Below, one piece after another: positions 2,741-20,835 of a stretch of 31,579 nucleotides of DNA. Numbering within the stretch: the first letter of the stretch is position 1; every line of letters begins with the position of its first letter. The DNA lies in assembly GCF_000192795.1 (NCBI RefSeq), contig NW_007360661.1, positions 1 through 31,579 of the forward strand, written 5' to 3'. The DNA is from Vavraia culicis subsp. floridensis. Lineage: Eukaryota > Microsporidia > Pleistophoridae. The notes beneath the pieces were generated by a model. That model was not told where the DNA came from. It saw nothing but the letters and a program-made list of their open reading frames with translations, and made no database searches. A program made the translations under genes and the position numbers.

Positions 2741-3883
2741 ATGCAGACCAACAGTTCGCATCCTCACACAACGTTTTGCTCCCCATCTAAAACAGAAACA
2801 GAACACGTGCCAATGAACGCGCTTGTACGAAACGCTCTTCTTTTTAACGCGCAGTACGGCACACGTCTTATGATACGCATGTTATTGCAAAGCATTGTTG
2901 ATATGATGGACGGTATGGGGGTGTGTGGGTTGGGATGTGTTGTGTTCGTGGATTTGTTTAAGGTACTGGTAGAGGGTGTGGTAGCAACGGTGGTACGCAC
3001 TCATCGGGATATGCGTGGTGATGCGGTCTATCATGATGAGGACATTGATCGCGCGCGCAAAGACAGACTTACTCACGAAAACGTGCACAATCAAGGGAGC
3101 GGGCATAATTATGATCGCAGGAAAGAACGTACTGCTATGCATAAATGTGTGCTTATGCAACACGTACATAAGAACACATCATGCACCCCCACGCATAAAA
3201 AACCGCTCTCTGCCATCCTAACAAAGCACGTATCAATACTATGCACAGTACTACACATCACACGAACATACACACTCATACCAACCGATACAACACTAAC
3301 ACTCACCACTCTCACAGACCTGCACGTATACAACGACCCAACCAATTTCACAGCATGTCCGTACATGCTATCACCGACCCCTTCACTCGTAATCTTAAAA
3401 AAGTACGGCACGGAATATGCCATAACATTGAATAATTCGTATCTGTGCAGTTTGGAACGTAAGGTGTTCGAGAATAGCAGTACCTGTCTGTGGGAGATAA
3501 AGCAGAACGCGTACGGCTACTTTCTTAAACGGGACGGTCTGTGCTTTCGTGGCGGGTGTATGATGGCTGAATGCAACGATAATGATGAGGATCAGAGTTA
3601 CATGCTGGTTGAGAAGGAACTTTGTGTAGCTGGCGATGAGAGCACAGTAGAGGGGCAGGTAAAAAATAAAATAATGGGGCGCAAGATTAGCGATGGGAAG
3701 GATGATGACAGTACGGATGCTGCGCTGAAAAGAATGGAGGAGAAGTATGGGCATGTTGGGAAGAAGATGAAAGAACTGATTGGTGCACTGCACAAGGACA
3801 AGAAGAAGAAGGAACACAGGAAAAAGTGGGGAATGAAATGGAAAAGTCCTAGTTGGAGAGGTATTAAGCTTCCGATGTGCTGA
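2741..3883 (+). CDS. Ricin-B-like (QxW/trefoil-like) protein with hydrophobic N-terminal extension
   Basis: A 380-residue ORF. Residues about 225-292 hold two successive Cys repeats. The first has C236 and C249 followed by W251; the second has C268 and C278 followed by QSYMLV. This fits the ricin-B lectin repeat (CL, V-L, C, Q-x-W). A lysine-rich tail follows, with the helix DAALKRMEEKYGHVGKKMKE; DAALK-M-E recurs in the tail of the protein at 13225-14508. Residues 42-86 are hydrophobic, and 158-180 could be a signal segment. The start is unsettled. ATG 2741 is the longest reading; ATG 2813 has a TATA-like TCTAAAAC 27 nt upstream; ATG 3155 would give the trefoil with its own hydrophobic leader. 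It lies same-strand with the next two family members. Family assignment is by motif only; no substrate can be inferred. Confidence 0.6.
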   Translation: MQTNSSHPHTTFCSPSKTETEHVPMNALVRNALLFNAQYGTRLMIRMLLQSIVDMMDGMGVCGLGCVVFVDLFKVLVEGVVATVVRTHRDMRGDAVYHDEDIDRARKDRLTHENVHNQGSGHNYDRRKERTAMHKCVLMQHVHKNTSCTPTHKKPLSAILTKHVSILCTVLHITRTYTLIPTDTTLTLTTLTDLHVYNDPTNFTACPYMLSPTPSLVILKKYGTEYAITLNNSYLCSLERKVFENSSTCLWEIKQNAYGYFLKRDGLCFRGGCMMAECNDNDEDQSYMLVEKELCVAGDESTVEGQVKNKIMGRKISDGKDDDSTDAALKRMEEKYGHVGKKMKELIGALHKDKKKKEHRKKWGMKWKSPSWRGIKLPMC

Positions 3884-5290
3884 GCAATGGCGGGCAGTAA
3901 CGAGCCATACAAACTGCGTTATACACGCGAATTGTTCGCCAGAAAGTCCTCAGTAAAGCACGTATTAAGTGCCTGAGCAATGGCACAACTTTCAACAATA
4001 AAGGCGGATAAGTGTGCGGTAAACAACGTGTACTGTTCATCATACACCGTGTGGTAAGCAATCCATACAAACAGCCTTGGTAATCTGCATGGCAGGTGGT
4101 AAGTACACGTACTGTTTGCTATGGGGAGAGTCATAGGATTGATTGATCGGTTGCTCTGTGACCGCTACCGGGCAAATTCGGTCTTACGAAGCAAAGATCA
4201 AATCTGAACGATGAAAATACGTGAATAACACTATGCCGTGGTGCAACTGCAAAATAAATTGTGAAATTGAACGAATTATTCGTGCTTTCTTGCTCTCCTC
4301 ATCGTACGGTGCACCAAAAAATAGTACGATTTACGAATGCTGCGTAAGTGAACAGCTGCTCGTTATAAAATTAGTTGATCACCTCACAATTAACAGCTCT
4401 GCCCCATATCACCGTATGTAACAGCTCATGATCACCACTTTGCTGTGCGGCATTGTTGCGCCATGGTTCAGAGAAACAATTACAAATGCTAAAACCACTA
4501 TTTCCCATGTCGACACCGAATAAATTTTCCTCTCAAACAGAAAAGAACAGCAGCGCTAAAAACGTACTTTTACAATTGTACGACCCGGTAAAATTGATCG
4601 AGCATGTTGTGTACCTTTAAGGATGCCATCCTTTTGCATTGGTTGTGCTTTTTCCCAGCAAAAGCACTTGTTAACTGTCTCACCAAGGGTGCACCGCTAT
4701 GTTGCGATCAAGGTGCAGTTCTATCGCAATATTTTTTGTTGAACGGGTTAAAAACATTATGCTTGCCACCTATCACCTAAATATTTGCTGTTTGTCCTGC
4801 TACGATACATGCAGTAATCTTTGTCTATTCCCTCTGCACATGTTGCAATCTCAGATCAATGCCGATTTAGTTTGATGTCTTATTCATGCATAGGTATGCC
4901 GTGTATATTCGTGGTATATCGTCAAAATTTTCGTGACATTAATTCCTGATATGATCAAGCAAATGTTTACAGCGAAAGCGCTACGAATTGAAAGGTACGC
5001 ATTTAAAATTCATGTATAGCGCCTATGAATCAGCGATGTTCTACGTAGAATCATGGCAGAATGCTCCATCTACCGCATTCTAATACGGTAAGCCCTCTAT
5101 CATGTAACTGAAACCAACCACGCATCCATTGAGCGGATGGACACCGCAAAGTCGTCTTGTTCTGCTCTTACCATTTAATGCATAAAGCAGTAAAGTCGCA
5201 TTGCCCAACACGCAAAACAAAAACTCACCTAAAACAAAGTGCATGTGATTGTTTCATGTGTTATTCAATTGCATTCTCATTTCGCATAGA
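3884..5290. other. Intergenic spacer
   Basis: About 1.4 kb with many stops in all frames, GC lower than the flanking coding regions. A weak inverted repeat (AGAATGC / GCATTCT) occurs near 5060-5083. I see no gene, RNA gene or mobile element. Confidence 0.45.
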
Positions 5291-7417
5291 ATGGCATACG
5301 GAACAATAAGCAACGCAAGAATATTAGACAGAATGAAAGCATCAGCGTGTTCATGGATGCGAGAGTGCAATATTTCGGATGTTATCGTTGCGATGGGCGT
5401 GGTTCTCTGTCTTACCGGGCTGTGTACCCCCAATATTTTGATCTGTGGTATATTATGCATCCTTTTAGCGGTGCGTGTTGTGAAAGGATCCCATATTTGG
5501 GGTACACTCAATAGCACCAAGGGTATTATTCGTGCAGTGATCGGTCGAACAAGCATATTTGTTCATACTCGCACAACGGGGCACACCGTTGCTCGCATAA
5601 TTCTGCGCATTCTGATGCATGTGATACCTGCCGTTGTACAGGCTGTGATTGGTTTCACCGCCTGCACTACAGATTTAATTAACAGGTCTAATGCGGCGGA
5701 TATGATTATCATGGTCGGTACGGCATGTATGCGTGCATGTGGGGTGCGTATCATCCATGAAGCGTACTTTGCTCCTTCACGTGTCGTTATATGCGTGCTC
5801 ATCTCCCTTGGAATTCAACGAGCACCTCTAACGCTATCAATTGAGGATGCGTTAGAGGTGCTCTGCGCTTCCAACTGCCTGTTCAGTAGCACATGTCTTA
5901 GCCGTACTGCTGGTGTCGTATGCCTACTGTTCCATGCACAGCTATGCGGTTGCTGTGATTTTCTGCTTCTCTATCCACTGAGTCCTAAGGTTTTTCCCAT
6001 ACCTGGTGATAGCACCTGTCGCACATCATATCATGCATGGATAACTTACATTGTATTTATAGTTGTGTCTAATGCAAGAATGCATAAACAATTAAGAATT
6101 ATGGTACGTTATCATGCTGTGCACACTCTTATTTCTTTATGCATATCGTCAGGAAAGAACATATACAGAGACGTACTGAACGCGTGCATAAATGAACAAT
6201 CTAAATATGGTTCTAGAACGTTTTTCAACATTAACATAAAAAGGAGCACTGGCATGATGTACAACGCACATGGCAAGAGGGCAGTGCTAACAAACAATTT
6301 TGTGGCACAAACGGGTATAGATGACACCAAAAACATGGGATGTCAAGCTTTTACCGATTTGGTGGTGCAAAATAGTTGTTTGAAAGAATTGAGCGACAAG
6401 GGCACGATCGTAGTTTGTGGAGACAAAAAACGCAAACATCGAATGATAGAAGATTGCACGTACATTAACGTAGAAAGAGACGATGCGTATGATGGTAGAG
6501 CTGAGATAGAAACGGAACAAAGAAATGCAGTTCTCACTGCGAAATGGAAGGTAACGCAGCGTACACACACCAAGGGTCTAACAGTGCCATGCAAACGCAC
6601 CGAAACAAAGAGAAAAAGAGCGCATAATATGAACATGAAAGACAAAAGATCGACATTCAATGCACCTATTTGTACTAAAACGAATATTAGTCATGGTAAA
6701 TCCAGCATAGGTGTACAGAACGAGCACGGGAGCATAAAAGAAGATAATGGCATAGTCTGTCTGATGAGCACGAAGAAGCGAGATAAATGCGTAAAGAAAG
6801 GAATTAATCTGTTCGATAAAACAATGAATACAGGTGATAATGCGCTTAGTGCTCATGATTGCCACAACATGCGAGCAGGTGCCTTAATGTCCTACATAAA
6901 CATTCTCATCCTATCACTGCTCATACTTCCATCCTCTTCACATTACATCATGCACAACAATTTCTATCTGCATGCGATCAATCGCAAGGTCGTGTTGAGC
7001 CGCGACAGAACATCCTTTAAAATAGAGAAACACGGTGCTTTCAGTAAGCTACGAGTTCGTGACCTGTATATGAACGAGCACATGAGACTGAACACCAAAG
7101 GATCACATTTTATGATAGAAAGGGTCATAAAGAATAGAAAAGACTCATCCGATAACCCGTCCAGACGCCATAGAAAAGAGTATTATTTTGCGCTGCGTAG
7201 AAAGAACAAGTGCCTGGCCGTGTGTGGCAATGAACTGAAAATGTCGCATCAATGCTCCATATTTAGGTTTGGTACTGCGAACAACTGCGACTTTGATTTT
7301 GTAAGGATGTTTAGAGAAGGCGTGTTCGTGCAGCCGTTCAGTGATGCCCTTGTTTTTATCAAGAAGATGACCGAGTGTGTGGATGACAAAGGATTGAACG
7401 GTTGTGGTGTATCGTAG
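5291..7417 (+). CDS. Large multi-segment membrane protein ending in a ricin-B-like domain
   Basis: About 708 codons without a stop, far beyond chance at this base composition, so the frame is under selection. From the N-terminus come several hydrophobic segments (roughly the first 290 residues), then about 240 charged residues. Last is a 176-residue C-terminal part that itself begins like a signal peptide (MSYINILILSLLILPSSSHY, ATG at 6887). The C-terminal part has K-C-L-x2-V-C, a second Cys and an aromatic F-x-F, the same pattern as the neighbouring ricin-B-like proteins. First ATG is 5291. ATG 5333 has AATAAGCA 28 nt upstream and may be the true start. ATG 6887 has no TATA-like box. It could be one membrane-anchored lectin-like protein or two fused genes. 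A perfect 15-bp hairpin lies in its coding sequence at 5820-5863. Confidence 0.6.
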   Translation: MAYGTISNARILDRMKASACSWMRECNISDVIVAMGVVLCLTGLCTPNILICGILCILLAVRVVKGSHIWGTLNSTKGIIRAVIGRTSIFVHTRTTGHTVARIILRILMHVIPAVVQAVIGFTACTTDLINRSNAADMIIMVGTACMRACGVRIIHEAYFAPSRVVICVLISLGIQRAPLTLSIEDALEVLCASNCLFSSTCLSRTAGVVCLLFHAQLCGCCDFLLLYPLSPKVFPIPGDSTCRTSYHAWITYIVFIVVSNARMHKQLRIMVRYHAVHTLISLCISSGKNIYRDVLNACINEQSKYGSRTFFNINIKRSTGMMYNAHGKRAVLTNNFVAQTGIDDTKNMGCQAFTDLVVQNSCLKELSDKGTIVVCGDKKRKHRMIEDCTYINVERDDAYDGRAEIETEQRNAVLTAKWKVTQRTHTKGLTVPCKRTETKRKRAHNMNMKDKRSTFNAPICTKTNISHGKSSIGVQNEHGSIKEDNGIVCLMSTKKRDKCVKKGINLFDKTMNTGDNALSAHDCHNMRAGALMSYINILILSLLILPSSSHYIMHNNFYLHAINRKVVLSRDRTSFKIEKHGAFSKLRVRDLYMNEHMRLNTKGSHFMIERVIKNRKDSSDNPSRRHRKEYYFALRRKNKCLAVCGNELKMSHQCSIFRFGTANNCDFDFVRMFREGVFVQPFSDALVFIKKMTECVDDKGLNGCGVS
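5820..5863. repeat. Perfect 15-bp inverted repeat inside coding sequence
   Basis: GAGCACCTCTAACGC at 5820-5834 and its exact reverse complement at 5849-5863, with a 14-nt loop. It encodes the residues RAPLTLSIEDALEVL of the large ORF. The DNA or mRNA could form a strong hairpin. Confidence 0.9.
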
Positions 7418-8088
7418 GGAGTAGTTGAGTATTGGTGTGATGCGGTGAAGTGGTACGGAGCAGGTGTGTGAGTAGCGGTTAACAGGGTAAATAAGATGGT
7501 GCATTACAAAGTAAGGTAGAAGAACTCTAAAGCAGAGTGCAAACGTGGAGGTGTGATGAGATGGAATAAGGGCATAGCAAGCACCGTGACATACGAAAGC
7601 AATTACATATAAGCATAGCACATCACCGGGCATCAAAAGGTGCATTAATGTATTGCTGTGTACGCCGTAAACATTCATTCTATGCATTAACACACCTATT
7701 CGTTGAGAGTAATGCACATTTAAACAAAATTAAACATTTTTAAAGCTGTGGTCGTTTGCTACGTGTTGTTGGGTAGGCTTAGTAATCATTTGCTGTTATC
7801 TTTACGAACTATTTCTACGTGTTGTTGTTGCTTTGTTCTTCCATTACCATTTCAAGTAGTTTAATCTCTCTTCATCTCTAAGCCTCTCTTCTTTCCTATT
7901 CCGTATCAATACTTTTTCCGATCAATTATCCATTCCCTTCCATATCAACACTTCTTCCTCCTTATCAATGCCCATTTTAGTACCTCTCCCTCTCCGTCCT
8001 AACCAATCATATCTCACATCGATCATCATATCTTATCTGTTTCAAATCATACCCTACCATTAAAATGTACGATTTACTACAGACGTAG
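7418..8088. other. Intergenic spacer, pyrimidine-rich toward its 3' end
   Basis: About 670 bp. The segment 7850-8060 is strongly C/T-biased on the plus strand and leads into the next gene. TTAAAATG lies 29 nt before the next ATG and may serve as its A/T box. No gene is seen. Confidence 0.5.
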
Positions 8089-9093
8089 ATGAACGTACTG
8101 CTCACAATACTTCATTTCATTCCCACTCTACACACCTCCATAAACCTTGTCATACACTCCCAGCCTATCTACTTCAAATCATACACCCTATCAACCGTAT
8201 CATCCCCGTACGATACGTTCACCCTCAACAACGGCATGCTAACAATAGGTGACAAAGCGTTGTGCCATCGTTACGGTTCAACCACAGTAAATACGTGCAC
8301 GATAGACCACAACGATAGAAGAATGCTAAAAATACGAATGATCGGTGGATGCACACGTATCGGTACGAATGGCATGTGTGTGAGTGTGAATGGTGGAATG
8401 GTTGGTTTGAGAGAGTGTGGGGGAGTGGGACAGTGTGCATTGGTACAGAATGTGGAGGATGAGAGTGATGATGGTGATAAGAATGGTAGAAGTGTTCGTG
8501 TTGGTGGTGATGGTGGTGATGTGAACAGTGGGAGAAGGTATGGGGCGGGATATGACGAGAAAGGAATGGTAAATTTGAATGGACGGGACAGTAGGAAAGG
8601 AAGTAACAGAGAAATGGTAGGAGATGAGAATGAAGGGAGCGGGAAGGAAGGGAGTGGGAAGGAAGGGAGTGGGAAGGAAGGGAGTGGCAATAAAAACAGC
8701 AGTGGCAATAAAAACAGCAGAGGCAATAAAAACAGCAGTGGCAATAAAAACAGCAGTGGCAATAAAAACAGCAGTGGGAATGAAAATAGCAGTGAAAACA
8801 GCACAGCAATTAATAATGAACAAGCAAACGATGCCAATACATCAACAGTAACCGGTACAAGTCCCTTCAACTCACAATCATACGATCTGTCACGTGTACA
8901 GCAGTCCTTAGATGATGCATTTCACACCATCACCGAGACAAATCCAGAAATAGAGGTTAATATCAAACGGGTCATTCCCAAGTGTTTTAATGGGTACGAA
9001 AGTATGGATGAATATTTAAGGGATGTACTTCCGAATGTAAGGAAGATGAGAAAGAAGTATTGTTATAATGAATTTTATGATATAGGGGGATGA
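8089..9093 (+). CDS. Secreted ricin-B-like protein with GSGKE/GNKNSS repeat linker
   Basis: A 334-residue protein. Residues 1-25 form a signal peptide (MNVLLTILHFIPTLHTSINL). Residues about 50-122 contain two Cys repeats: ALC59 to C70 then MLKI, and MC97, V-G-L, C110 then ALVQ, matching a degenerate ricin-B (QxW) repeat pair. Residues 123-180 are Gly/Asp-rich, 182-198 are GSGKE repeats and 199-234 are GNKNSS repeats. The C-terminal 75 residues form a compact charged module with several aromatic residues and two cysteines. The ATG at 8089 is the first in frame. It is convergent with the next minus-strand member, 593 bp away. The repeats are microsatellite-like at DNA level, so linker length probably varies between isolates. 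Sugar binding is not established, because catalytic or ligand residues cannot be read. Confidence 0.72.
   Translation: MNVLLTILHFIPTLHTSINLVIHSQPIYFKSYTLSTVSSPYDTFTLNNGMLTIGDKALCHRYGSTTVNTCTIDHNDRRMLKIRMIGGCTRIGTNGMCVSVNGGMVGLRECGGVGQCALVQNVEDESDDGDKNGRSVRVGGDGGDVNSGRRYGAGYDEKGMVNLNGRDSRKGSNREMVGDENEGSGKEGSGKEGSGKEGSGNKNSSGNKNSRGNKNSSGNKNSSGNKNSSGNENSSENSTAINNEQANDANTSTVTGTSPFNSQSYDLSRVQQSLDDAFHTITETNPEIEVNIKRVIPKCFNGYESMDEYLRDVLPNVRKMRKKYCYNEFYDIGG
8632..8793 (+). repeat. In-frame 15-bp and 18-bp tandem repeats
   Basis: Nearly four copies of a 15-bp unit (GAAGGGAGTGGGAAG, 8632-8685) are followed by six copies of an 18-bp unit (GGCAATAAAAACAGCAGT, 8686-8793). Both periods are multiples of three and preserve the reading frame, coding for GSGKE and GNKNSS. 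Confidence 0.92.
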
Positions 9094-9686
9094 TACGTCA
9101 TGGTAAGAGTAAGTAATGATTGGTAGGTATTAACAAATAAAGCAATGCATTATTTTACCATTATTTATTACACCGTGCTGTACGCTACCAATCATCAATG
9201 ATGCTAGCATTTTTATGTAATAGGAGTACAAACTTAGAAGATGACTTGTCAGTTTGTGCAAATAAATTATTTTACCCTTCAAAAATAAGAAATGTTTATT
9301 TTGTATTTCTGTGCAACATTAAGTGCTAAAACTTTTATCTAACCCATTCTCTCCAAGATACGTTTAGTTAACATTTCCAAACAATATTAAACCGCATAAT
9401 TTGGAATAAATTCCTTAACCCTTGTCGAAGATCTGAAACAAGTAAAGTAGTTGGTGAATAAAAGTATGAAGTATTAAAGAAAGGAAGTGCCGTTTATTAT
9501 GCAAGCAAATTTTACTACGTTTTATAAACGGAGTAGCACTGCCATTTAATAATGCAGGTACTGCCCACCACAATTGCTCACCACAATTAATCACCATATA
9601 CACAATACTTCATCATCACACCCCTTCACCACCACAACTAATCACCACACCCCTTCACCACAATTAATCACCATATACACAACACT
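9094..9686. other. AT-rich convergent intergenic spacer
   Basis: About 590 bp between two convergent stops. It contains AATAAA about 40 nt after the upstream gene and a short-unit repeat of CACCATATACACAA / CACCCCTTCACCA near 9590-9685. No gene is seen. Confidence 0.5.
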
Positions 9687-10211
9687 TCACTTACGTCCTA
9701 TGCCTTTGAGAGACTCTCTCCTGTAGTACTCCTCATTCTTGTCCATCACTTCCAGCACGATCTTCTCTTTCTCAGCAATAGTGCCCCCATCAACACTGCC
9801 ACCACCCTCCCTAGCAACAAACACCTGCTCATCCCTACCATCACACTTCCCCAAGCCAACTCGTCCATAGTAGTACGTAACACACCGCCCATCGCTCTCC
9901 AGCATGTACTTATCATCATCTACCACCACCATCCTAAACACGCTCTCAAGCTCATCATACGTGCACACCGCCACGTCCCGCTCCTCCCTATCCACACACA
10001 CCTTCATACCGCAGTAGAACACTTCGTAGTGGTTGTCCGATATCTTACGTAGCTGTGCGAATGTGCAGTACGTGTTCAGTGCCTGCTGGAAGGCCTTGCT
10101 TAGGGGCAGTACGGACAGGTGGAGGGTGTCTATGCCCAGCACAAGACTGTCATTGTGCAGGAAGTGCAGTTCTATCAGTTTGGATGTTAGCAGGGAGATG
10201 AATAGGAACAT
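9687..10211 (-). CDS. Secreted ricin-B-like protein
   Basis: A 174-residue protein and the clearest family member. MFLFISLLTSKLIE is the signal peptide. Two repeats are visible. Repeat one has V-C72, V-A-V-C83 and VFRMV. Repeat two has GRC110-V, R-V-G-L, KC123-DG and EQVFVA, which follows the ricin-B consensus (CL, V-L, C-G, Q-x-W) almost position by position, with F for W. A short charged C-terminal tail follows, so this member lacks the long low-complexity extension of its relatives. TATAAA lies 25 nt upstream of the ATG at 10211, and CCCC lies six nucleotides upstream, so both promoter elements are present. It shares the minus strand with the NAD kinase, 318 bp downstream of the latter's stop. 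Confidence 0.74.
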   Translation of the reverse strand: MFLFISLLTSKLIELHFLHNDSLVLGIDTLHLSVLPLSKAFQQALNTYCTFAQLRKISDNHYEVFYCGMKVCVDREERDVAVCTYDELESVFRMVVVDDDKYMLESDGRCVTYYYGRVGLGKCDGRDEQVFVAREGGGSVDGGTIAEKEKIVLEVMDKNEEYYRRESLKGIGRK

Positions 10212-10230
10212 GAGGAGGGGTGGTGAAGGG

Positions 10231-10529: not shown

Positions 10530-11825
10530 TCACCGCTGCTCATAACCGCCATACAACCGGTCAATCACCCATCTATCACCAATCCTACCACGCTCACAGT
10601 ACGCCATCCTTACCATAGCTCCACCCCTAACAACAAACTCATCCCCACTGATCCACCGCACACCATCAATCACCCCCATCCCATTCGTGCTCAGCACCTT
10701 CACCCGTACCGTTCTATCCACACCAACCACCAAGGCATTTTCTCCGTGCTCAGGGTTGATGAAATTTATGACGTGGCACTGCACAAGCGCGACAGGTCCT
10801 TTCGCTGATTTGTTGTATGCGGATGAGCCGGTCTGTGTGCTTATCAGGACTGAATCGCATCTCACGGTTATTTTGAACGTGTTGTGGCTATGCGCATAAA
10901 TGCTGTTCAAATCGGTGCCGGCAGAACGGTTGGTCGTGCCAGGGCTGCCAACCGTATCGGCATCCCTGAGCGCACCGCACCCCTCATCGTAAACATGCAC
11001 CTCAAAAATGTTCAATCGACCGGGATATCCCCTTCCAATGACCAGCTCGTTCACAAAGTACCCCTTCCCCACCACCTTGCTCAACCTGCGCATTACAAAT
11101 TTAAAACTGCCAAATTCTTTTTTAAGATCATCCCTTGCCAGCAGGCATAAATGACCGGCATGTCCGTAGTTGAACACGTAGAACGTTAGCGGCTGATCTG
11201 TGCTGTCGGACAGCACGTTCTGATCGTTTGGCCTGTACTTGTGTGTGCGGTTCTGTTGGTGTGATGGGCAATGTTTGTGGCTGTTTGTGCGGGGTGCTTC
11301 CTTTTCGTTGGTTTGTGCTGGGCATGTGCGGTTTTTTATGCTTTCTGTTTTTGTGGCGGTACCGCTATTGATAAGGGCACTGTTTGGCACGGTTTTACCA
11401 TTTTGATTTTTCTTACTTTCATCCTCCCCACTTTCATCCTCTCCACTTTCATCCTCCCCACTTCCACCCTCTCCATTTTCATCCTCTCCACTTCCACCCT
11501 CTCCATTTTCATCCTCTCCATTTTCACCCTCTCCACTTCCACCCTCTCCACTTCCACCCTCCCTACCTATAACGCCATCCATCCGCACCTCTCCATCGCT
11601 CTCAAATTCAAAACCACCAAACATCCTCTCATACACCCATTCAATCTCATCAATTGCCTTTCCACAGCTCAGCAACGCTCCACACGCACTAAGAAACGTA
11701 CCATCACCACCCAGCACAATAACATTCGGTGCTCCGCTTTTCACCTCATACCTCGTTGTCAGGTATGCACGTGCTGACTGGATGGCCGGCGATGGCACGG
11801 ATGGTAAAAAGATTTGGAAATGCAT
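10530..11825 (-). CDS. NAD kinase with large low-complexity insert
   Basis: A 431-residue protein that phosphorylates NAD to NADP using ATP, a cytosolic step supplying NADPH metabolism. Family motifs seen: VLGGDGTFL at 37-45 (ATP/NAD-binding GGDG), FNYGHAGHLCLL at 218-229 (usual N-x-G-x-x-GFL), NELVIGRG at 259-266 and STQTGSSAYNKSAKGP at 329-344 (usual STPTGSTAY). The canonical GDG before the last motif is CDS here, so the enzyme is divergent. Between the first two motifs sits an insert of about 140 residues (73-215), including Gly/Glu/Asp/Ser/Asn repeats at 89-137 encoded by a 15-bp tandem repeat. The start at 11825 is chosen because CCCC lies seven nucleotides upstream (AACCCCAAAAAAATG) and longer readings begin with TTG. 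Activity is likely but untested because of the motif changes and the insert. Confidence 0.88.
   Translation of the reverse strand: MHFQIFLPSVPSPAIQSARAYLTTRYEVKSGAPNVIVLGGDGTFLSACGALLSCGKAIDEIEWVYERMFGGFEFESDGEVRMDGVIGREGGSGEGGSGEGENGEDENGEGGSGEDENGEGGSGEDESGEDESGEDESKKNQNGKTVPNSALINSGTATKTESIKNRTCPAQTNEKEAPRTNSHKHCPSHQQNRTHKYRPNDQNVLSDSTDQPLTFYVFNYGHAGHLCLLARDDLKKEFGSFKFVMRRLSKVVGKGYFVNELVIGRGYPGRLNIFEVHVYDEGCGALRDADTVGSPGTTNRSAGTDLNSIYAHSHNTFKITVRCDSVLISTQTGSSAYNKSAKGPVALVQCHVINFINPEHGENALVVGVDRTVRVKVLSTNGMGVIDGVRWISGDEFVVRGGAMVRMAYCERGRIGDRWVIDRLYGGYEQR
11413..11570 (-). repeat. 15-bp tandem repeat within NAD kinase
   Basis: Degenerate 15-bp units (plus-strand form like CTTTCATCCTCCCCA / CTTCCACCCTCTCCA), coding on the minus strand for GEDEN, GEGGS and GEDES pentapeptides. 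The frame is kept because the period is divisible by three. Confidence 0.9.
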
Positions 11826-12770
11826 TTTTTTGGGGTTGCGCAATTCGTGTGATAGGATGGATGATGGTTTGTTATTATGCGCATAATGCAATAAGAGTTA
11901 TTGTACAGTATAAATAGGTGGAGGTGCCATGATGCGTTGTATTTGCGTGTTTGGAGCTGTGCAGTGCATAATACAGGACATGAACGGGAAGAATTACAAT
12001 TTAGGAAAACGTAGTGGAGGGGAGAACGAGAAAGAAATTGTGGCGTACCACGAATAGAAGACACCAAGGATGTGATCCGCTGTTTGTTCAAGACTGCTAG
12101 ATGTGCCTGCCACGTGAAATACGCTTTTCATCACCTGCCATAGCGGTTCTCAAATGAGCACTTTTTCCACGGAATGTAAAGTGCTGTTATCGTTCACGCG
12201 CGGTAAGAAATGTGGTGAGGACTGGCTTAGATTCACCAGAACGGCAGCAGAGCGGACAGGCCGACTCGTTCACAATGGCATTGATTTTGAACCTGCTCTG
12301 ACAAGCGAATTTGTGCAAAAGTGACCGGGTCGTGGCAGAAAGTTGCGCCCAAGAACTGAGATGTACCAGCTCTACCCGTTAAACATTCTTGGCGAGCGCA
12401 CTATCCCAAGATGGTACATGGGGCGACTCTTGGGCGGTTTCGTGCCACTGATGCGACCAAACGGCGAGCGCAAATTTACACGATAAACAGACCTTCTGGC
12501 CGTGCGCACCCCGAACTGACGGTTTCTGCGGATGTGAGTTGTGCCAGCAAAAGAGTGTGGCATGAAAAGTTGTTTATCGGTGCGTACCTACGGCACTGCA
12601 GGTGTTGAATGATTAGTTGATCAGAACGTACATTTTTGGTTATTAGCATGTAGTTGGCATGGACACTGCCGACAAGAACAGAACACGCCAATGGGACGAG
12701 CAGGGGGGTATGCACGTGGACCGTATGATGTGCAGCATGCGTGATCAGCCGTGGCTGCTGTGCCGGTGCA
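11826..12770. other. Divergent intergenic spacer
   Basis: About 950 bp between the NAD kinase start and the minisatellite. GC is moderately high. A direct repeat of GGCGAGCGCA occurs near 12391 and 12462. No gene with a usable start signal is seen. Confidence 0.4.
11832..11835 (-). promoter_or_regulatory. CCC-like start signal of NAD kinase
   Basis: CCCC on the minus strand, seven nucleotides before the ATG at 11825. It decides between this start and longer non-ATG readings. Confidence 0.6.
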
Positions 12771-13105
12771 CAGATGTTCATGACCATACACGGTTGTGCT
12801 GTTCTGGCCCGGTATGTGTGCCCTGCCCACCACAGTACTGTTCTGGTCTGGTGCACAGATGTTCATGACCATGCACGGTTGTGCTGTTCTGGCCCGGTAT
12901 GTGTGCTCTGCCCACCACAGTACTGTTCTGGTCTGGTGCACAGATGTTCATGACCATGCACGGTTGTGCTGTTCTGGCCCGGTATGTGTGCTCTGCCCAC
13001 CACAGTACTGTTCTGGTCTGGTGCACAGATGTTCATGACCATGCACGGTTGTGCTGTTCTGGCCCGGTATGTGTGCCCTGCCCACCACAGTACTGTTCTG
13101 GTCCG
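12771..13105. repeat. 85-bp minisatellite, about four copies
   Basis: An 85-bp unit beginning CAGATGTTCATGACCAT starts at 12771, 12856, 12941 and 13026, the last copy ending near 13105. Copies differ at only a few positions (for example CCATACA/CCATGCA and GCCCTG/GCTCTG). Because 85 is not divisible by three, the array keeps several frames open on both strands; the apparent ORFs are artefacts of the repeat. It ends about 90 bp before the TATA-like box of the next gene. Confidence 0.95.
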
Positions 13106-13195
13106 GTAAATCTCAGCATTCGTTTTAGCCCTGTGTCTGCCCCCTCCTATCACCGCGTTTTATCAAAAATGAAACGAAACGTTTCAGAACAAATC

Positions 13196-13203: not shown

Positions 13204-13224
13204 CCGCTATGACAACACTGAAGG

Positions 13225-14508
13225 ATGTTACCGCTACTATTCCTTGCGCTCATAAGTGCTAAAGAGGCACCTGCAGAAAACACCAACGAACCCGAAAGCG
13301 CCTCTACATCCTCGCACGACTGGAAGTCTCTCTCATATGCCGTGCTGATCTCACCGTGGCTAAGAAAAGACCTATTCGTGAACACGGCAACGGCCCAACT
13401 GGAGGTAAAGAGCAACGATAACTCAGATCTCTACAAATTTCAGGCTGACGAGCCCGATGGTCGGGGAATGGGATTCCTGCTGATGAACAAAGCTGGCGAG
13501 TATTTCATAATCGATCCCAACATGACGGTAAAACTGGTGCAGGAAAAACCGCAGGACTTATGGCTGTTCGCCATGAAGAGAAGTGGCAGCATAGACGTAT
13601 CCTATGCTCGATTCGGTACAAAATGTTTGCTGTACACCAAGGATAACCAATTGACCGGCACAAACTGTGCCGATATCGGTGAGAATGTGGAGGAGGACGG
13701 GTTCATTGTCATAATAATGAATAGCTCGTTGAAGGAGGTATCGGATGAAATGAGGATTATAGACAGCCAGATTGCTACGGAAAAAAGTGAAAAGAATGTG
13801 GAGGAGCCTGAGGAGGAAAATAAAAGGGAGGAGCAGAAGAAGGAAGAGTTTGTAGGGATTAGGTTTGAAGATGGAATGCCCGAGAAGAAGAACGAGGGAG
13901 GCACTGGGAAGAGAGGAAGGGATGCTGAGGAGGAGGGCAAGGGGCCGGAGAGTAAGAGGGCAAAGAAAGAAAAGGAGGGGGACGAACCGAGGAAAGGCTC
14001 TCAGGGCAAGGGCGGTGAAGGTAAATCGAGGAAGAGACCTGCCTCTGATGATGATGAGGAGGAAGATGAGGGTAAAGGCAAAGAAAAGGGGCCAAAAAGA
14101 GGTGCGAAAAAGCCAAGAAAGGGTGCGAGTGACGAGGAAAAGGCATCACCCTCTGGCGATGAAGCAGCTCTGAAAAAGATGCTAGAAGATCTTCTGGCCA
14201 AGGTGGATAACGTTAAAGATGCGATGGAAAAGAGAGAAGGTTCGGGAAAGAGTGACAAGCAGCAGAGCGGAAAGTTGAAGCAACCACAACGAGGTAAGAT
14301 CAGAGCAAAGGGATCGGGCTTGAAACCGGGCAACAAAGACGATGAGGAAGATAAGCTGACAGGAGGAGGACTGTTTGGCAATGCATTGAACACGCTTGGC
14401 AATGTGGCAGACCTGGCGATCAATCCTACTAAAAAGGCGAAGATGGCGTTGAATGCGGCTGAAGCTTTGAAAGGTCTACTTGAACCGGAGACCAAGGAAA
14501 CAGAATAA
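13225..14508 (+). CDS. Secreted ricin-B-like protein with basic NLS-like tail
   Basis: A 427-residue protein. MLPLLFLALISAKEAPA is a signal peptide. Residues about 32-168 form a beta-rich domain, including KCLLYTKDNQLTGTNC (134-148) followed by FIVI, the Cys-pair pattern of the neighbouring ricin-B-like proteins. Residues 190-380 are charged low complexity with NLS-like clusters: GKRGRD (228-233), SKRAKKEK (243-250), KSRKRPASDDDEEE (267-280) and KRGAKKPRK (291-299). A helix at 313-335 begins EAALKKMLEDLLAKV, echoing the tail of the 2741-3883 protein. The end (383-420) is a hydrophobic/amphipathic segment. AATAAA overlaps the stop codon. A secreted protein carrying NLS-like clusters could act in the host nucleus; this is inference. 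It could instead be a spore-wall or polar-tube accessory protein. Confidence 0.75.
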   Translation: MLPLLFLALISAKEAPAENTNEPESASTSSHDWKSLSYAVLISPWLRKDLFVNTATAQLEVKSNDNSDLYKFQADEPDGRGMGFLLMNKAGEYFIIDPNMTVKLVQEKPQDLWLFAMKRSGSIDVSYARFGTKCLLYTKDNQLTGTNCADIGENVEEDGFIVIIMNSSLKEVSDEMRIIDSQIATEKSEKNVEEPEEENKREEQKKEEFVGIRFEDGMPEKKNEGGTGKRGRDAEEEGKGPESKRAKKEKEGDEPRKGSQGKGGEGKSRKRPASDDDEEEDEGKGKEKGPKRGAKKPRKGASDEEKASPSGDEAALKKMLEDLLAKVDNVKDAMEKREGSGKSDKQQSGKLKQPQRGKIRAKGSGLKPGNKDDEEDKLTGGGLFGNALNTLGNVADLAINPTKKAKMALNAAEALKGLLEPETKETE

Positions 14509-14509
14509 A
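14504..14509 (+). terminator. Poly(A) signal overlapping stop codon
   Basis: AATAAA whose TAA is the stop codon of the 13225-14508 gene. Confidence 0.6.
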
Positions 14510-15404
14510 TTATATTTGTTAATGTTAAGGCGGTTCGTTCCTGATGGTGCGAACGGATCACTCGTGAAGATCGAGCCATCGTTTAAGTGGGGTCTTTGAG
14601 CCATGCTGATGATTTGGTGCGAAGGCATTCGTGTGATGAGATGGAAGCAAACGCTGGTCATTGCACGCATTTCTGGGCGGAAGCGAATAAATTTACTGCT
14701 TGCACTGCGCTTGTGATCGGTTGTTGATTCTTGACGCTTTCTGATCCGTGTTGTACCCCTTAGCAGACCGTTTGTGCGGTCTAAGCCAAAACTGTTCTGC
14801 GTTTGAAGGCTTACCCGTTTGCTCACGCCAACACAACATTTCCTTATCCGTTTAGACCGCAAGAACAGTTTTTAGGTACGTGCACGGTTTTGAGGTGCTT
14901 GGCCTGTTAACAAGAACTGTGCTCGTTGTGGTTTGTCGGCAGGCAGAAGGGTTTAGGATAGGGCGCAGCACCTTTCGATAATGCGTACTGTGGTGGATGG
15001 CAAAGTGTTCGTCAGAGCAGCCTCGCTAACACAAACTACGGTGATTGTGCCATCGAGTCGCTGTTCAGAAATTGTTGTGAGCTGCCATCAGGCGAACCGT
15101 GATCAAATTTAGCGTTGCCGTGAGAACGAATCGCTTGCATCAACCTCAGCAAAGAGAGAGCGCGCGAACCACACCGCCAGATTTGGGCATTCTACCGCAG
15201 CAAAGGAACAATCGCTGTAACCAATCGTTTGTTCATCTCCTCATGCATCGAAAAAGCGATTTCCACGCCAGGGATAGTTACCGATGAGGACGTGCACCGT
15301 AGCACGGTCTTTCCTGTGGAGAACAGAACGACCGCACCGCAGCAGATCTGAGTGCACTTACGTGTCACCGCGCAGATCTTGAAAGCAGACTCTTACTCAA
15401 CAAT
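14510..15404. other. Convergent intergenic spacer with interlocking inverted repeats
   Basis: About 900 bp, not obviously coding on either strand. It contains two inverted-repeat pairs in interleaved order at 14775-14872, described separately. No RNA gene could be recognised. Confidence 0.45.
14775..14872. repeat. Interleaved inverted repeats (X-Y-X'-Y' order)
   Basis: X = TGCGGTCTAA (14775-14784) pairs with TTAGACCGCA (14852-14861). Y = AAAACTGTTCT (14788-14798) pairs with AGAACAGTTTT (14862-14872). The pairs interleave rather than nest, so the two hairpins are alternatives or form a pseudoknot-like topology. Confidence 0.85.
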
Positions 15405-15410
15405 TTTATT
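15405..15410 (-). terminator. Poly(A) signal at the stop codon of the RING gene
   Basis: AATAAA on the minus strand sharing one base with the TAA stop (GAGTAAATAAAA). Confidence 0.6.
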
Positions 15411-16132
15411 TACTCGATATCAAGGCCATCTGCAGGGTCTACGTCGGGCAGCAACGCTCTCCCGCAGCATGGGCAAGTTCTCTTCTCAAGCATCCATTTG
15501 TACAGGCACGTGAGCTGGAACCCGTGTCCGCACGGTGCATACACCAGGTCATAGTCCTCGAAGCAGATCGGACATTCGCTCGAATACCTCTTCGCTTTCT
15601 TGCCGCTTATCTCGTCACAGACCGCCACATCAAGCAGGTCGTACTTAAGAATGTTCAGTGCCCGTATTAACTCGTCCTCCTCGCTTTTTATTCTGCTCGT
15701 CTTCAACCGCTTCTCGAACAGTGCCTCCGCGCTCGTGAGCACAAGCTTCACGTCCGATGTCAGCCTCGTCGTCTTGATGTGCGAGTAGTTATCGCTTGTT
15801 CTCAGCTTGTACAGCATTCTGAACACAAGTACCATCTCGTCCAGGTATTTCTGGAACGAATTGCTGAGGACCGCATTGTCGTCTGCCTGGTTGTTCAGGA
15901 TCTGGTAGCGTATTTGGTAGTCGAGCAGCAGCTCGTTGTGCTTCTTCTTGCTACCGCTCAGCGCGTGCTGCTTGGTGACACTGACGTACTTATTGTTTCG
16001 GCGCGGGGGCACGAATATGGAGTGGAAGTCCTTGCGAATCTTGCTTATGTAATTTCGTGGCCTGTGCTCATCAAGAATGAACACGCGTTCTGTGAATATC
16101 ATGGTGATGAAAATGAATAGAATGTGATGCAT
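15410..16132 (-). CDS. Secreted RING-finger protein (candidate E3 ubiquitin ligase)
   Basis: A 240-residue protein. The start at 16132 is chosen over a longer frame because TATAAAAG lies 27 nt upstream and the new N-terminus MHHILFIFITMIFTERVFIL is a signal peptide. Residues 62-175 are helical and charged. Residues 187-223 form a RING: C187-x2-C190, C201-x-H203, C209, C220-x2-C223. The ligand expected at 206 is Gln instead of His/Cys. An acidic tail follows. RING domains recruit E2 enzymes for ubiquitin transfer; being secreted, it could act on host proteins, which is inference. The helical part resembles the protein at 17914-18657, and CGHGF recurs near the end of the protein at 28653-29819. 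AATAAA touches the stop codon. If the signal segment is an anchor, it could instead be an ER-membrane ligase. Confidence 0.82.
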   Translation of the reverse strand: MHHILFIFITMIFTERVFILDEHRPRNYISKIRKDFHSIFVPPRRNNKYVSVTKQHALSGSKKKHNELLLDYQIRYQILNNQADDNAVLSNSFQKYLDEMVLVFRMLYKLRTSDNYSHIKTTRLTSDVKLVLTSAEALFEKRLKTSRIKSEEDELIRALNILKYDLLDVAVCDEISGKKAKRYSSECPICFEDYDLVYAPCGHGFQLTCLYKWMLEKRTCPCCGRALLPDVDPADGLDIE

Positions 16133-16151
16133 GTCGTATCTCTTCCGCTTT

Positions 16152-16159
16152 CTTTTATA
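16152..16159 (-). promoter_or_regulatory. TATA box of the secreted RING gene
   Basis: TATAAAAG on the minus strand, 27 nt upstream of the ATG at 16132. It decides the start and yields a signal peptide. Confidence 0.7.
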
Positions 16160-16676
16160 GATTTTATGGCAATTTATCACATTCTAAGAATGGAAAGAAC
16201 GAAAATATCCTTTAAGGAAAAATAGGAAAGTAAATTAAAATTGCAATAAAGTGCTGAACGAGCGGTGTGATTGCATGTTATAATACGGCAGTGAACCGCA
16301 ATTTCTTATAAAACGGGGCAAATTGCTGTTTGCTGCTGGCATGTTCGGATCAATAAACGTAATATAGCAGACATGTGGACACGGGTGCTACGGAAGGGAA
16401 CGGTCAGGACCGGGCTCATTGCTCAGCACCACACGTTGCAAATCAAACGGTGTAAAAATAATATAGCGTGCACATGGCAGGGCAGCACACTGTGGAAGGC
16501 ATCATACCTACGCTTCAGTACCTGCTATCACTGCTCACATGCTGTTCCGTGCTAATTCATTTTTAATTTATCAATCGTTTTGTGCTGCGTTGAAAACGAA
16601 CAAATTTGGAATAAATGATGCAAAACGTGTGATTATCATTGAATTTGTTGTACAACGTGTTTTTTACGTTTTGGCA

Positions 16677-16757
16677 CGTGCAAAATGTGCAAGCAGAAAT
16701 TGCGCACCGTACCGCTCTGTTCGTGCAAAATGTGCAAGCAGAAATTGCGCACCGTAC
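16677..16757. repeat. 45-bp-period direct duplication
   Basis: A 36-bp sequence starting CGTGCAAAATGTGCAAGCAG occurs at 16677 and again, identical, at 16722. Confidence 0.9.
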
Positions 16758-17554
16758 TCCACTCCAACACGTGCTCATATTTTGATCACCACTATTTCGT
16801 AAATTGTGATCAATCACTTCAATATTACCAAATGAAACGCTGTGCTTGCTTGCACTGAATTGTGCACGATATGGTCAAACAAGCAGCTCCTCCCATCCCA
16901 TAGACCGGCAGCACCGAACGTATTTTGGCCTGCAAAACACCGGACACGTCCGTGTTTGCATCCGCATGGCTGATTGTCTTCTTTGCAACCAAAATCATTT
17001 TATGTCTCTCTTACGATCAAATCCAGTGATATCCTCTTTTGTTACCGTTTGAGAGTGAAATTGATTTTTAATCAATAAAATTTTTTGGGCAGTTTTAGAG
17101 CTTAAACACGGTTCGGTACCGGTTCAGAAAGAAATGGTGCAAATGTTTGTGTTCGTCTGCGGGCAGCAATTAGGAGAGGTGGCAAGATGGCATGGTAACA
17201 TGCTCCAGCGTGGAGTACAAATCGAGAGCTTCTATCCTACGCCTACAAAGGAGGACGAACTGTTAGGTCGTGTGCACGCCTGTACAACCAGGTTTTTCAC
17301 TAAAAGTCGCTTATTCATCTCCTCATACACATCATCCAAAGAACACACTTTTTGGTCTGCTGTGCCCGATCGTGGCCACTAGCCTTGGTTTGGAGGAGAA
17401 ATTCGTGCGCAGGCCTGCATGGCAACACAAAGGTGTGCAGCAGTGGCCCCAGCACACAAGCTGAGCCTTCCACACATTCCTGAACACCTTTCTTGCCATT
17501 TGCAGCTCAGTGCAATTCGTGGGCAGTGTACGGCTAAGCGATGGGCATGTCCAT

Positions 17555-17740
17555 TCAAATGCTGTTCTGCATCACATTCCGTTGTTCATCTGCATTTGTA
17601 AAATGTTTCAATCTGGGATGATCAAATCTCCGTTTTCTGAGCACATCACTGATCAAAAATATGGCACGAAGTAACTCCGCATCGGAAAGGACAGGCATGA
17701 GCTCAATGATTGAGTATGCGCTCCAATCTGCAAATATCAT
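17555..17740 (-). CDS. Candidate 61-residue protein with CCC start signal
   Basis: A 61-codon minus-strand frame starting MIFADWSAYSIIELMPVL and continuing with predicted amphipathic helices and a basic C-terminus. Support comes from CCCC about 11 nt upstream of the ATG (CATACCCCGTAATTACCATG), as at the housekeeping genes here, and from ordinary codon use. I recognise no homologue. It could be a small real gene, a decayed fragment, or chance. Confidence 0.3.
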   Translation of the reverse strand: MIFADWSAYSIIELMPVLSDAELLRAIFLISDVLRKRRFDHPRLKHFTNADEQRNVMQNSI

Positions 17741-17908
17741 GGTAATTACGGGGTATGCCAGGTATTGTCGTTGCCTTTGCACTTCCGCATTAGGAATTTA
17801 AACAGCTTTCCATTTTTAAGGCCTGTCACAGAACCATAAAAAGGTCTGCCCTGCAAGATGAGATTACCCCTTTGCGATAGCAATTGATGTTCTTACGAAG
17901 CAATACCT

Positions 17909-17914
17909 TTTATT
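17909..17914 (-). terminator. Poly(A) signal at the stop codon of the secreted helical gene
   Basis: AATAAA on the minus strand sharing one base with the TAA stop (TTCTAAATAAAAGG). Confidence 0.6.
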
Positions 17915-18657
17915 TAGAACATCCTCTCAATCTCAGACTTTGCCTCCTCTGCAGCCTCGATGAGCGAATCGCACCCCTGATCAAAAGTTTCGAGCTCGTC
18001 CAAATCGTACATTCTATCCTTCTCCACCATCTTTACGAGTACGGTTGCGTTATCTACAAGCTCCTTTATGAGAGACAGCAGCTTGGACACCCGCAGCTTC
18101 TTCCACGTGTAGGTTCCCACCGAGTCATCCAACTGGTCAACAATGTCCGAAAGTGCTTCGTACACGTTCCACAGCTTCGAGCTGTACTCCTTCTCCAAGC
18201 CCTTATCAACTCGTTTCTGAATTTTGTCCTTCAATTCGCTCAGCATGCTTCCGATCTCATGTCTATCCATCCTGTACTTGGGCGTTGTGCTGGTTCTTTC
18301 GCGCGCAACCTGCGTGTAGAACAGGTCATAACGATTGCTGAACGTCTCCGAGTTATCCCTTGCCTGCAGTTTTACCGTTTTTGGCTGTTCCAGCTGCGGT
18401 ATCTCCTCCAGTGCAACCGATTCATAATCAGAAGGCTGCGATCGATCAACACGCAAAACCTTCCTGGTTGATGGCTCTGCCTCCCTCAGGCCGTAGTCAC
18501 GGGGATCGGAGTACATCGTGTCGACGTACTCGGTGTGTGCGGGGGTCAGTGAGTACGTAGCCTCGTCATCCGAAACGTAGCTGTAGGCACGGTAGCTGCA
18601 CCTGTATGCAGCTATGTATATCAAAAGTGCTGCTGATAGATTGTGTATGGCCAACAT
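17914..18657 (-). CDS. Secreted helical protein
   Basis: A 247-residue protein. The start at 18657 is chosen because TATAAAAA lies exactly 28 nt upstream. It gives the signal peptide MLAIHNLSAALLIYIAAYRC. The ATG at 18678 lies only seven nucleotides after the TATA box and is unlikely to be in the transcript. Residues 25-130 are Tyr/Ser/Asp-rich and probably disordered. Residues 131-247 are a run of charged amphipathic helices. This helical part aligns by eye with residues about 90-170 of the secreted RING protein: a helix, then Y-x3-K-x2-R, a Leu-rich helix, and D-E-L near the end. It has no RING, so it would be a RING-less member of that family. No enzymatic motif is visible. It is divergent from the ricin-B-like gene at 19924. 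Confidence 0.75.
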   Translation of the reverse strand: MLAIHNLSAALLIYIAAYRCSYRAYSYVSDDEATYSLTPAHTEYVDTMYSDPRDYGLREAEPSTRKVLRVDRSQPSDYESVALEEIPQLEQPKTVKLQARDNSETFSNRYDLFYTQVARERTSTTPKYRMDRHEIGSMLSELKDKIQKRVDKGLEKEYSSKLWNVYEALSDIVDQLDDSVGTYTWKKLRVSKLLSLIKELVDNATVLVKMVEKDRMYDLDELETFDQGCDSLIEAAEEAKSEIERMF

Positions 18658-18677
18658 GGATGTGATTGCGCTGATCA

Positions 18678-18685
18678 TTTTTATA
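18678..18685 (-). promoter_or_regulatory. TATA box of the secreted helical gene
   Basis: TATAAAAA on the minus strand, 28 nt upstream of the ATG at 18657. It overlaps an upstream in-frame ATG and argues against that start. Confidence 0.7.
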
Positions 18686-19896
18686 CTTTTAAAGTAATTT
18701 GTGTATTTTTGTAAAAATTTATTTTTAATTTGTAGAAATTCAAGCACTTCCCAAATGAGGAATATAAAATGATTGATGAGCGTTTTTGCACGCTTTGGTA
18801 CGATCAGATCAAAAAATAGAATTGGGTGAAATGGACCCGTGTTCTGGATGAAGATGACCTGTATTCTGGATGAAGATGAGCAGGGGCACTGCGTGCACGA
18901 GATAGTGCTGCGGTTACTGCCATTTGTATTTATCACTCCACATTTTGCCTGATCAACGTATCGTTCACTCTCTTTGCCCGATACGCACCCTTCACACGAA
19001 CCGGAACTGATCGTGTGCACAGCGAGGTGCACACAAAACCTGTGCAGCTGCATCACGCCGTTGCATTTCGTGGAACGTGCTATCGCTAAACGCATTTTAC
19101 CAGCACAGCGTTTATACGCTAACAGTGGAGCGAGATCGCGAGCACATTGCAGGATTAACCCGTTTTAATAAATCACAGGATTTTTAATTTGTCTTTAGCG
19201 GCAGCGCACCGGGTGACTTTACAGTTTTAACGGACACGTCATCTCAGCAGAGAAGATGGGCGCTGTTCATGTCTACGGTCATTTCTGCTACGAATAAAAC
19301 CAAAAACAGATTATTTCAACTGCAGCGCAGATGTAACACACCGTTAGGTCTTCCTCGCCAAAAATTGTGTATTTACCACTTTTTTATCACTCAGCTAATT
19401 TACTCGCAGTACCGCACCGTAACGTGCAAGAAAGGCACTTCGTTGCCATGAATCGTAAATTTGCGTTTTGCCATGTTAGTAATGCGTTGCTATCATTAGG
19501 GCTAGAGAGGTGTTCATTTATTCTCCTCATCTCCTCATTTCCTCATCTCCTCATCTCCTCATCTCCTCATCCCTCACCTCATCCCTTCTCCTGCTGCAAA
19601 AAGCCCGCAAATTAAACACCCGCTACAACCGCACCAATCGCATGCCTGATTACCACACGTACACATCATCGTACCAGCGGCTATGCACCCATTTCTCACC
19701 GATGTGCCCGGGTTCGTGTGATGAGCGGCACCAAATTTGCTTGAGCAGGGATCGAAAAGGCTGCGCAGCACGGGCCGTACGCCAGGTACGATGCTGCCAC
19801 GTGTTATGACGCTGTTCATCGCTCTCAGAGGCGATCGACACGCAATTCCTTTCAAAACACTTCCCAAACAAAGATGTTTTAGCCATCACCACCAAA
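18686..19896. other. Divergent intergenic spacer
   Basis: About 1.2 kb between two divergently transcribed secreted-protein genes. It contains a duplicated ATTCTGGATGAAGATGA motif near 18842-18878 and a 9-bp CTCCTCATC-type repeat at about 19518-19577. Frames here carry no start signal. Confidence 0.45.
19518..19577. repeat. 9-bp tandem repeat (TCTCCTCAT)
   Basis: About six near-perfect copies of a 9-bp pyrimidine-rich unit, grading into CCTCACCTCATCCC. Confidence 0.85.
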
Positions 19897-19904
19897 TACA
19901 AAAA
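19897..19904 (+). promoter_or_regulatory. TATA-like box of the Arg-rich-tail ricin-B-like gene
   Basis: TACAAAAA, 27 nt upstream of the ATG at 19924; CCC also lies just before the ATG (ACACCCGCATG). Confidence 0.45.
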
Positions 19905-19923
19905 ACATCACACACACACCCGC

Positions 19924-20835
19924 ATGTTAACCATCAGAGCGCCTGTTTGCGATTTATTCCCGTCCTATATCACGCCGCATTTATGCAAAGCAATCCCTGC
20001 TGCCATCAAGCTATCGGTCCGCATCCTCGTGCTCTTCCGCCTCTGCCTTATCGCATGCGAACCGCTCACCGAGGAGGGATACATCTACTCGGTTGACGAG
20101 CGCAAATTCCTCGACTACCAGCACAAGCAGGATGCCCTCGTGTTCGTTGAGTACGACCACATGCCGCCTGCGTTCAGGATGGTGGAGACCGAGTCAGGCG
20201 CAGTCTTTTTGGAGGATGAGAACGGCAACGCGCTCGACTCCTCACGCAGCAACTACGATCTGATCCTGTTCAAGAAGCATGGCGGGTGGAACCAGCAGTT
20301 CTCGCTGGTGACCGTTCCACGCGACATGGTAAAGCTGAGAGTCGGCAACCGGTGCATGACCACCGAAAAGAACATGAAGTACCTGACAGAGGTGGACTGC
20401 GACACGTTCAGCAACAAGCCCGGCCAGTTCTTCAAGTGGATCAGTAAGAAGGACGAGCAGGTGGTGCGAGATTACATCGAGCGGTGCAGACGTGGCGGGC
20501 GGCGAAGAGGGCCGCGGTACAACGACGATGCGTACGACGATGAGTATCCGAGGCGGGGCCGTGACAGGCCGTACAGAAGGCGGCCAAGGGTAAGGCGGCG
20601 TGGCGATGGCACACGGGATGATTACGAGCCGCAGGATTACGACAGGCGCGACTACGATGACCGTGATTATGATAGGCGGTCGTATGACAGGCCGTACGAT
20701 GCGTACGATGATTCATCGCACGATAATGAAAGGTGGGATCAAAGGCTTAAGCCGTGTTTGAACCTCAATGAGGACAAGCTGAGGGACAAGCTGTACGATC
20801 TGAGGGCAATAGCGAACAACAACGTTGTGCTGTGA
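19924..20835 (+). CDS. Secreted or membrane-anchored ricin-B-like protein with Arg/Asp/Tyr tail
   Basis: A 303-residue protein. A hydrophobic segment (VRILVLFRLCLIAC, 32-45) lies unusually far from the start and may be a signal anchor or a late signal peptide. No nearer in-frame ATG exists. Residues 50-175 are beta-rich with NQQFSLV (123-129), RCM at 143-145, C159 and GQFFKW (167-172), resembling QxW repeats with F for W. Residues 183-275 are rich in Arg, Asp and Tyr: RRGGRRRGPR (189-198), then DYDRRDYDDRDYDRR-type repeats (238-252). A short helix ends the protein. Codons strongly favour C or G at the third position, unlike neighbours, suggesting high expression. The tail resembles RNA-binding or condensate-forming low-complexity tracts; any such role is inference. 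Confidence 0.72.
   Translation: MLTIRAPVCDLFPSYITPHLCKAIPAAIKLSVRILVLFRLCLIACEPLTEEGYIYSVDERKFLDYQHKQDALVFVEYDHMPPAFRMVETESGAVFLEDENGNALDSSRSNYDLILFKKHGGWNQQFSLVTVPRDMVKLRVGNRCMTTEKNMKYLTEVDCDTFSNKPGQFFKWISKKDEQVVRDYIERCRRGGRRRGPRYNDDAYDDEYPRRGRDRPYRRRPRVRRRGDGTRDDYEPQDYDRRDYDDRDYDRRSYDRPYDAYDDSSHDNERWDQRLKPCLNLNEDKLRDKLYDLRAIANNNVVL

Follow-up and report, generated by a model that had tools for sequence, protein, structure and literature searches.

A probable loose cluster of strongly diverged ricin-B-like secreted proteins in Vavraia culicis

Secreted proteins without recognisable relatives abound in microsporidian genomes, and one contig of Vavraia culicis subsp. floridensis raises the question of whether such proteins can be remote members of a known family, the ricin-B-like proteins (RBLs). 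The window, that is the whole stretch of 31,579 nucleotides analysed here (NW_007360661.1 of assembly GCF_000192795.1; contig C58 of the 80 contigs, 5.63 Mb, that we searched), had been predicted to encode six clustered secreted RBLs with different tails exchanged by recombination. All six open reading frames (ORFs) of this original prediction were recovered at their predicted positions, two of them being over-long (2741-3883 and 5291-7417, genes A and B below). We favour, with a probability of about two in three, the reading that far-diverged secreted RBLs form a loose cluster in the window; F is certainly a member, the membership of C, D and E is probable and that of A possible, and B is undecided. 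The genes are the following.

3155..3883 (+), gene A: secreted-type, orthologue of Trachipleistophora hominis THOM_1161; candidate trefoil domain ~3293-3625, Lys-rich tail ~3626-3880
6887..7417 (+), gene B: probable true gene within ORF 5291-7417; leader, then Cys-containing domain ~6941-7321
8089..9093 (+), gene C: leader, probable remote RBL-like domain ~8137-8457, tail with GSGKE and GNKNSS repeats
9687..10211 (-), gene D: probable remote RBL-like protein, two of its lobes containing Cys pairs; domain ~9804-10172, short tail; nearest to the secreted-type pair on contig C10 (below)
13225..14508 (+), gene E: leader, probable remote RBL-like domain ~13318-13728, long Lys/Glu tail with stretches resembling a nuclear localisation signal (NLS), as seen by eye
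19924..20835 (+), gene F: ricin-B-like, domain ~20071-20448, Arg/Asp/Tyr tail whose end block is conserved in T. hominis

Judged from its sequence, F is certainly a bona fide ricin-B-like protein. Its best named relative is T. hominis P0002, a putative Ricin B-related lectin with 72% identity. An RBL of contig C18 that was found with F retrieved, as query, six strong RBL matches including itself (four on C18, two on C43), together with weaker matches to F (expectation value E 1.4e-4) and to a protein of contig C14 (E 0.0011). Profiles were run against 654 stop-to-stop ORFs of at least 80 codons, drawn from the window, from 70 kb surrounding the clusters and from 130 kb of background. The profile of the six RBLs, built without F, gave 32.5-32.8 bits for F, 61.9 for a further C18 member and 13.6 for the C14 protein; these three and the six strong matches are the nine RBL ORFs used below. 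When F was added, the profile matched 14 PDB sequences at E<=1, with a designed trefoil on top (E 7.9e-5) and the best natural lectin at E 0.0052; going by their names, we take 11 of the 14 to be trefoil lectins or their relatives, and the other three were not lectin-like (one pullulanase and two rad21 entries). The C14 protein itself (L016:313-1896, 528 residues) has an RBL-like last lobe close to its end; an NLS-like stretch and a Lys/Glu tail come after this lobe.

With the six-RBL profile, D and A ranked directly after the nine RBL ORFs (E 0.55 and 0.59). A ten-sequence profile placed D 1st, A 7th, C 27th, E 50th and B 113th among 442 scored non-members, and a last-lobe profile placed A 3rd, C 9th, D 24th, B 28th and E 87th of 383. 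Since the original prediction had chosen the genes by last-lobe Cys, we tested mature whole domains, with the leader removed, against 644 of the 654 ORFs, using the rank sum of the nine RBL ORFs and 199 shuffles per gene. None of the 199 shuffles was as low as the observed value for D (rank sum 530), E (551) or C (2176). The result for A was not significant (2571, 18/199 shuffles as low; 2632 and 7/99 column shuffles when its two orthologues were included), and B behaved similarly (2648, 55/199). Five other secreted-type proteins used as controls were equalled by between 3 and 15 of their 19 shuffles. As a background control, 130 residues were taken from the middle of each of 42 longer ORFs that did not overlap, with 9 shuffles per ORF and a fixed divisor of 640. 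The lowest background z was -1.98, and the same divisor gave about -4.0 for D, -3.1 for E, -2.4 for C, -1.5 for A and -0.6 for B; in raw rank sums, none of the 42 was as low as D or E. Because of these shuffle and background controls, kinship to the RBLs appears well supported for D and E and moderately for C, and is not supported for A and B. The prediction of a ricin-B-like family thus held clearly for F and probably for C, D and E; for A there was only a weak structural hint and for B no support. The nearest other ORF to C was D.

The Cys repeat that had been proposed as the family mark did not survive comparison with background ORFs. Its frequency was at chance level in both the strict form (7/109 ORFs in the window vs 20/327 in the background) and the loose form (41/109 vs 106/327), and we rejected it as evidence of kinship. 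A Q.?[FWY] motif downstream of the Cys pair occurred in three of the domains (A, D and F) and not in the others (B, C and E). On sequence grounds, two things exceed chance: C, D and E resemble this genome's true RBLs more broadly than in the motif, and F is an outright member of that family.

Several other expectations stood better. The mutual identity of the domains is indeed very low, the other five being 9-21% identical to A in a forced alignment, and F together with C, D and E lie inside ~13 kb, as the predicted clustering implied; elsewhere in this genome, five RBLs occur on C18 within ~24 kb and two on C43. Hydrophobic leaders were recovered in part: in a crude hydrophobicity scan they directly follow a usable Met in B, C and E (3/6), and A, D and F fail this rule. 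The leader of D is weaker than those of B, C and E. The hydrophobic stretch of A, like that of F, comes ~25-30 residues past the nearest upstream Met, and the T. hominis orthologues are laid out similarly. Clear conservation of ORF 2741-3883 with T. hominis starts only at ~3218, and B very probably starts close to the ATG at 6887 (or 6869), at the beginning of a strong hydrophobic leader.

A second set of candidates was found on contig C10:

L043:3116-4345 and L043:5768-7498 (-), contig C10, X1 and X2: adjacent secreted-type ORF pair with long low-complexity tails

By eye, both resemble RBLs and have Cys pairs in two lobes, like D. Apart from the pair itself, the top match of their profile was D (E 1.2e-4, 16.9 bits), closely followed by an unrelated-looking 910-codon ORF (E 5.8e-4). 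A profile of A, its T. hominis relative P0006 (THOM_1161, 65% identical), C, D and the C10 pair brought eight of the nine RBL ORFs within the top 34 of 649, with a rank sum of 382 against a null mean of 2482 and 0/100 column shuffles as low; since this profile contained the leaders, part of the effect may stem from them. C10 also holds an additional weak match at 86155-86616 (E 0.0018).

A number of results weigh against a cluster of diverged RBLs, and some of them speak for a rival that we consider rather unlikely, namely that F alone is an RBL and that A to E are small secreted proteins, unrelated and lineage-specific, which share no more than a leader, a few Cys and a beta-rich composition. 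None of the 10 window proteins scanned reached the PF00652 gathering cut-off (29 bits), and the window has no ricin Pfam match, as this rival would have it. The Pfam silence of A to E is weak evidence, however, because the genome's own RBLs outside the window (four scanned) also match the ricin families only below the cut-offs, the best reaching 24.9 of 29 bits with PF00652. In all, seven relatives were scanned with Pfam besides the window proteins, and their ricin matches stayed below the cut-offs. Likewise, searching the genome with PF00652 and PF14200 found nothing but shows nothing, since the clear RBLs were missed too. The rival also draws on the chance-level Cys motif and on own-genome searches with A, C, D and E, each of which found itself only. 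No convincing relative emerged from PDB sequence searches with F alone, with C alone or with either of two profiles based on A. An alignment of A, B, C and D used as a protein search missed the proteins of B and C themselves, so that its silence on T. hominis relatives of these two is uninformative; a single search with E returned only a 99% identical copy and no T. hominis relative. The first-two-lobes profile supported none of A to E (D was best, 30th of 455), and the C10 proteins taken singly failed to retrieve the RBLs (18/19 shuffles as low for X1, 7/19 for X2). The shuffle test itself has weak points: A to E had been pre-selected by their Cys pattern, ten ORFs longer than 720 residues were excluded from its targets, and 8/42 background ORFs had a raw rank sum as low as that of C.

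The structure models give the rival further ground and also a point against it. AlphaFold models of A and E, the two proteins modelled, were of low confidence (mean pLDDT, the predicted local distance difference test, ~40 in both), and they did not yield the trefoils in most members that the original prediction had named as its test. No trefoil occurred among the 50 entries listed for the E model, which does not exclude one, and AlphaFold thus gave E no support. Foldseek's best E was 1.4 for the A model and 0.068 for the E model, and because its own list for A consisted mostly of unrelated folds, we slightly lowered our confidence in the cluster. The VIA-align list for the low-confidence A model, on the other hand, was trefoil-only, all 50 of its 50 entries being, as we take it from titles and ranges, beta-trefoils. 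Together with the passage of C, D and E through the shuffle and background-ORF controls and the match of the C10 pair profile to D, this list argues against F being the only RBL, and we retain a cluster in which C, D and E are remote members.

The tails bear on another explanation, that the cluster diversifies by recombination swapping low-complexity tails among RBL domains. The six tails do all differ in composition, as had been claimed, with no match at E<=1 between any tails of A to F, and other RBLs of this genome also have dissimilar tails. Against swapping, the members have no tail in common, and for A and F the tail has an orthologous counterpart in another genus. A and P0006 are 81% identical in the domain and 53% in the tail (over 85 aligned residues); F and P0002 are 89% and 77% identical (tail over 128), and F and its more distant relative P0003 63% and 43% (over 122). 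Among the RBLs, the only tail pairs below E 0.01 were R5-R6, neighbours on C43 (1.7e-9), and R2-R8, on one contig (1.5e-5), and both have related domains too; the other listed tail pairs were weaker than 0.04. Repeats, moreover, account for tail growth in place:

8628-8687 (+), tail of C: in-frame tandem array of a 15-nt unit
8683-8794 (+), tail of C: in-frame tandem array of an 18-nt unit
10530..11825 (-), interrupting gene: divergent NAD kinase with its own in-frame 15-nt repeat array at 11415-11561

The tail repeats of C are of the same kind as the array in this unrelated NAD kinase, whose Pfam matches lie just under the cut-offs and whose recognisable halves flank a long low-complexity insert. 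In-gene slippage and vertical inheritance explain the tail patterns, so that swapping is not needed; we rejected it for A and F and hold it to be very improbable for the cluster. Directly upstream of E, at 12765-13107, an 85-nt unit occurs in four copies that are 98% alike.

Two further proposals, compatible with remote RBLs in the window or built upon them, remain tentative. D and the C10 pair might belong to a PTP4/PTP5 branch, in which case the window would partly encode polar-tube-associated proteins rather than host-directed effectors; we find this doubtful, and it would not conflict with the cluster of RBLs. The C10 pair is adjacent and secreted-type and its profile matches D, and it may be PTP4/PTP5 because ptp4 and ptp5 are reported as adjacent in all genomes studied in PMC10759460. 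Its candidate status nevertheless comes entirely from this adjacency and from the match to D; D does not adjoin the pair, and an unrelated-looking ORF scores close behind it. More speculatively, the contig could be part of a GC- and repeat-rich compartment in which trefoil effectors of two branches, the classical RBLs and a polar-tube-like branch with two Cys pairs (including C, D and the C10 pair), diverge past recognition and in-frame tandem repeats generate new disordered tails. If so, many "orphan" secreted proteins of Pleistophoridae would be hidden ricin-B folds. The first 28 kb of the window (1-28000) has a GC content of 45.7%, above all 13 background stretches (36.8-42.4%, mean 40.0%, 130 kb); among RBL stretches, those of C43 are rich (46.6 and 50.3%) and those of C18 are not (35.6-40.4%).

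If the cluster does consist of diverged RBLs, the leader would most likely export each protein from the parasite by the secretory route, and the trefoil would bind glycans or proteins, whether on the spore wall, the polar tube or host cells. A second contact or avidity would come from the charged tail, which is probably unstructured and in E could act as a nuclear-targeting signal. The genes would have arisen by old local duplication followed by divergence down to profile-level traces, their tails altering in place through repeat slippage and being inherited along with their gene. Remote RBLs beside a true one suggest that part of the orphan secretome is a single known host-facing fold beyond the reach of Pfam, and the analysis separates slippage-driven tail growth from domain shuffling.

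Other secreted-type genes lie nearby. The ORF at 15410-16132 (-) has a leader and, at its C-terminus, a RING-H2 finger (PF13639, above the cut-off), with no Pfam match in the region between; its product is possibly a secreted or membrane RING ubiquitin ligase, and RING matches occur elsewhere on contigs C26, C79 and C12. Those at 17914-19095 (-) and 28653-29819 (+) are secreted-type with no convincing Pfam relative, the latter ending in Cys/His-rich, zinc-finger-like pairs (by eye). On contig C2, L035:1758-3338 (-) encodes a secreted-type protein whose many PCIPICPPY repeats give it some likeness to proteins of the polar tube or spore wall.

Neither "ricin" nor "lectin" came up when the T. hominis genome paper (PMC3486916) was searched for these terms in its main text, and among the matches listed from the openly licensed literature no title or abstract concerned RBL clusters in Vavraia or Trachipleistophora, which leaves their absence unproven. 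Secreted RBLs are known from other microsporidia, as the original prediction stated, the family being described in three papers (PMC3749934, PMC9224602, PMC10759460). Campbell and colleagues found it widely conserved in microsporidia, with tandem clusters and two members released at germination (PMC3749934); Xu and colleagues counted 52 RBLs in Nosema bombycis, 30 with a detectable domain and nine with a leader and an NLS, and located NbRBL28 in the host nucleus (PMC9224602); and 74 RBLs were identified in Nosematida from sequence plus structure, an argument for hidden members that resembles ours and uses structures (PMC10759460).

The window agrees with the RBLs of Spraguea, Encephalitozoon, Nosema and Vairimorpha in its secreted-type proteins with a putative single diverged trefoil-like domain, its tandem clustering and its very low identities, and also in that some members lack a Pfam-detectable domain and some carry an NLS, in the window a candidate one. 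It differs from them in its Pleistophoridae-like genome and its several long low-complexity tails, and its members are more diverged from one another than the C18 and C43 RBLs of the same genome. In T. hominis, P0002 and THOM_1161 have the same domain and tail as their orthologues F and A. By description, E would resemble NbRBL28 in joining a leader to an RBL-like domain and to stretches that look NLS-like by eye, its nuclear targeting being putative.
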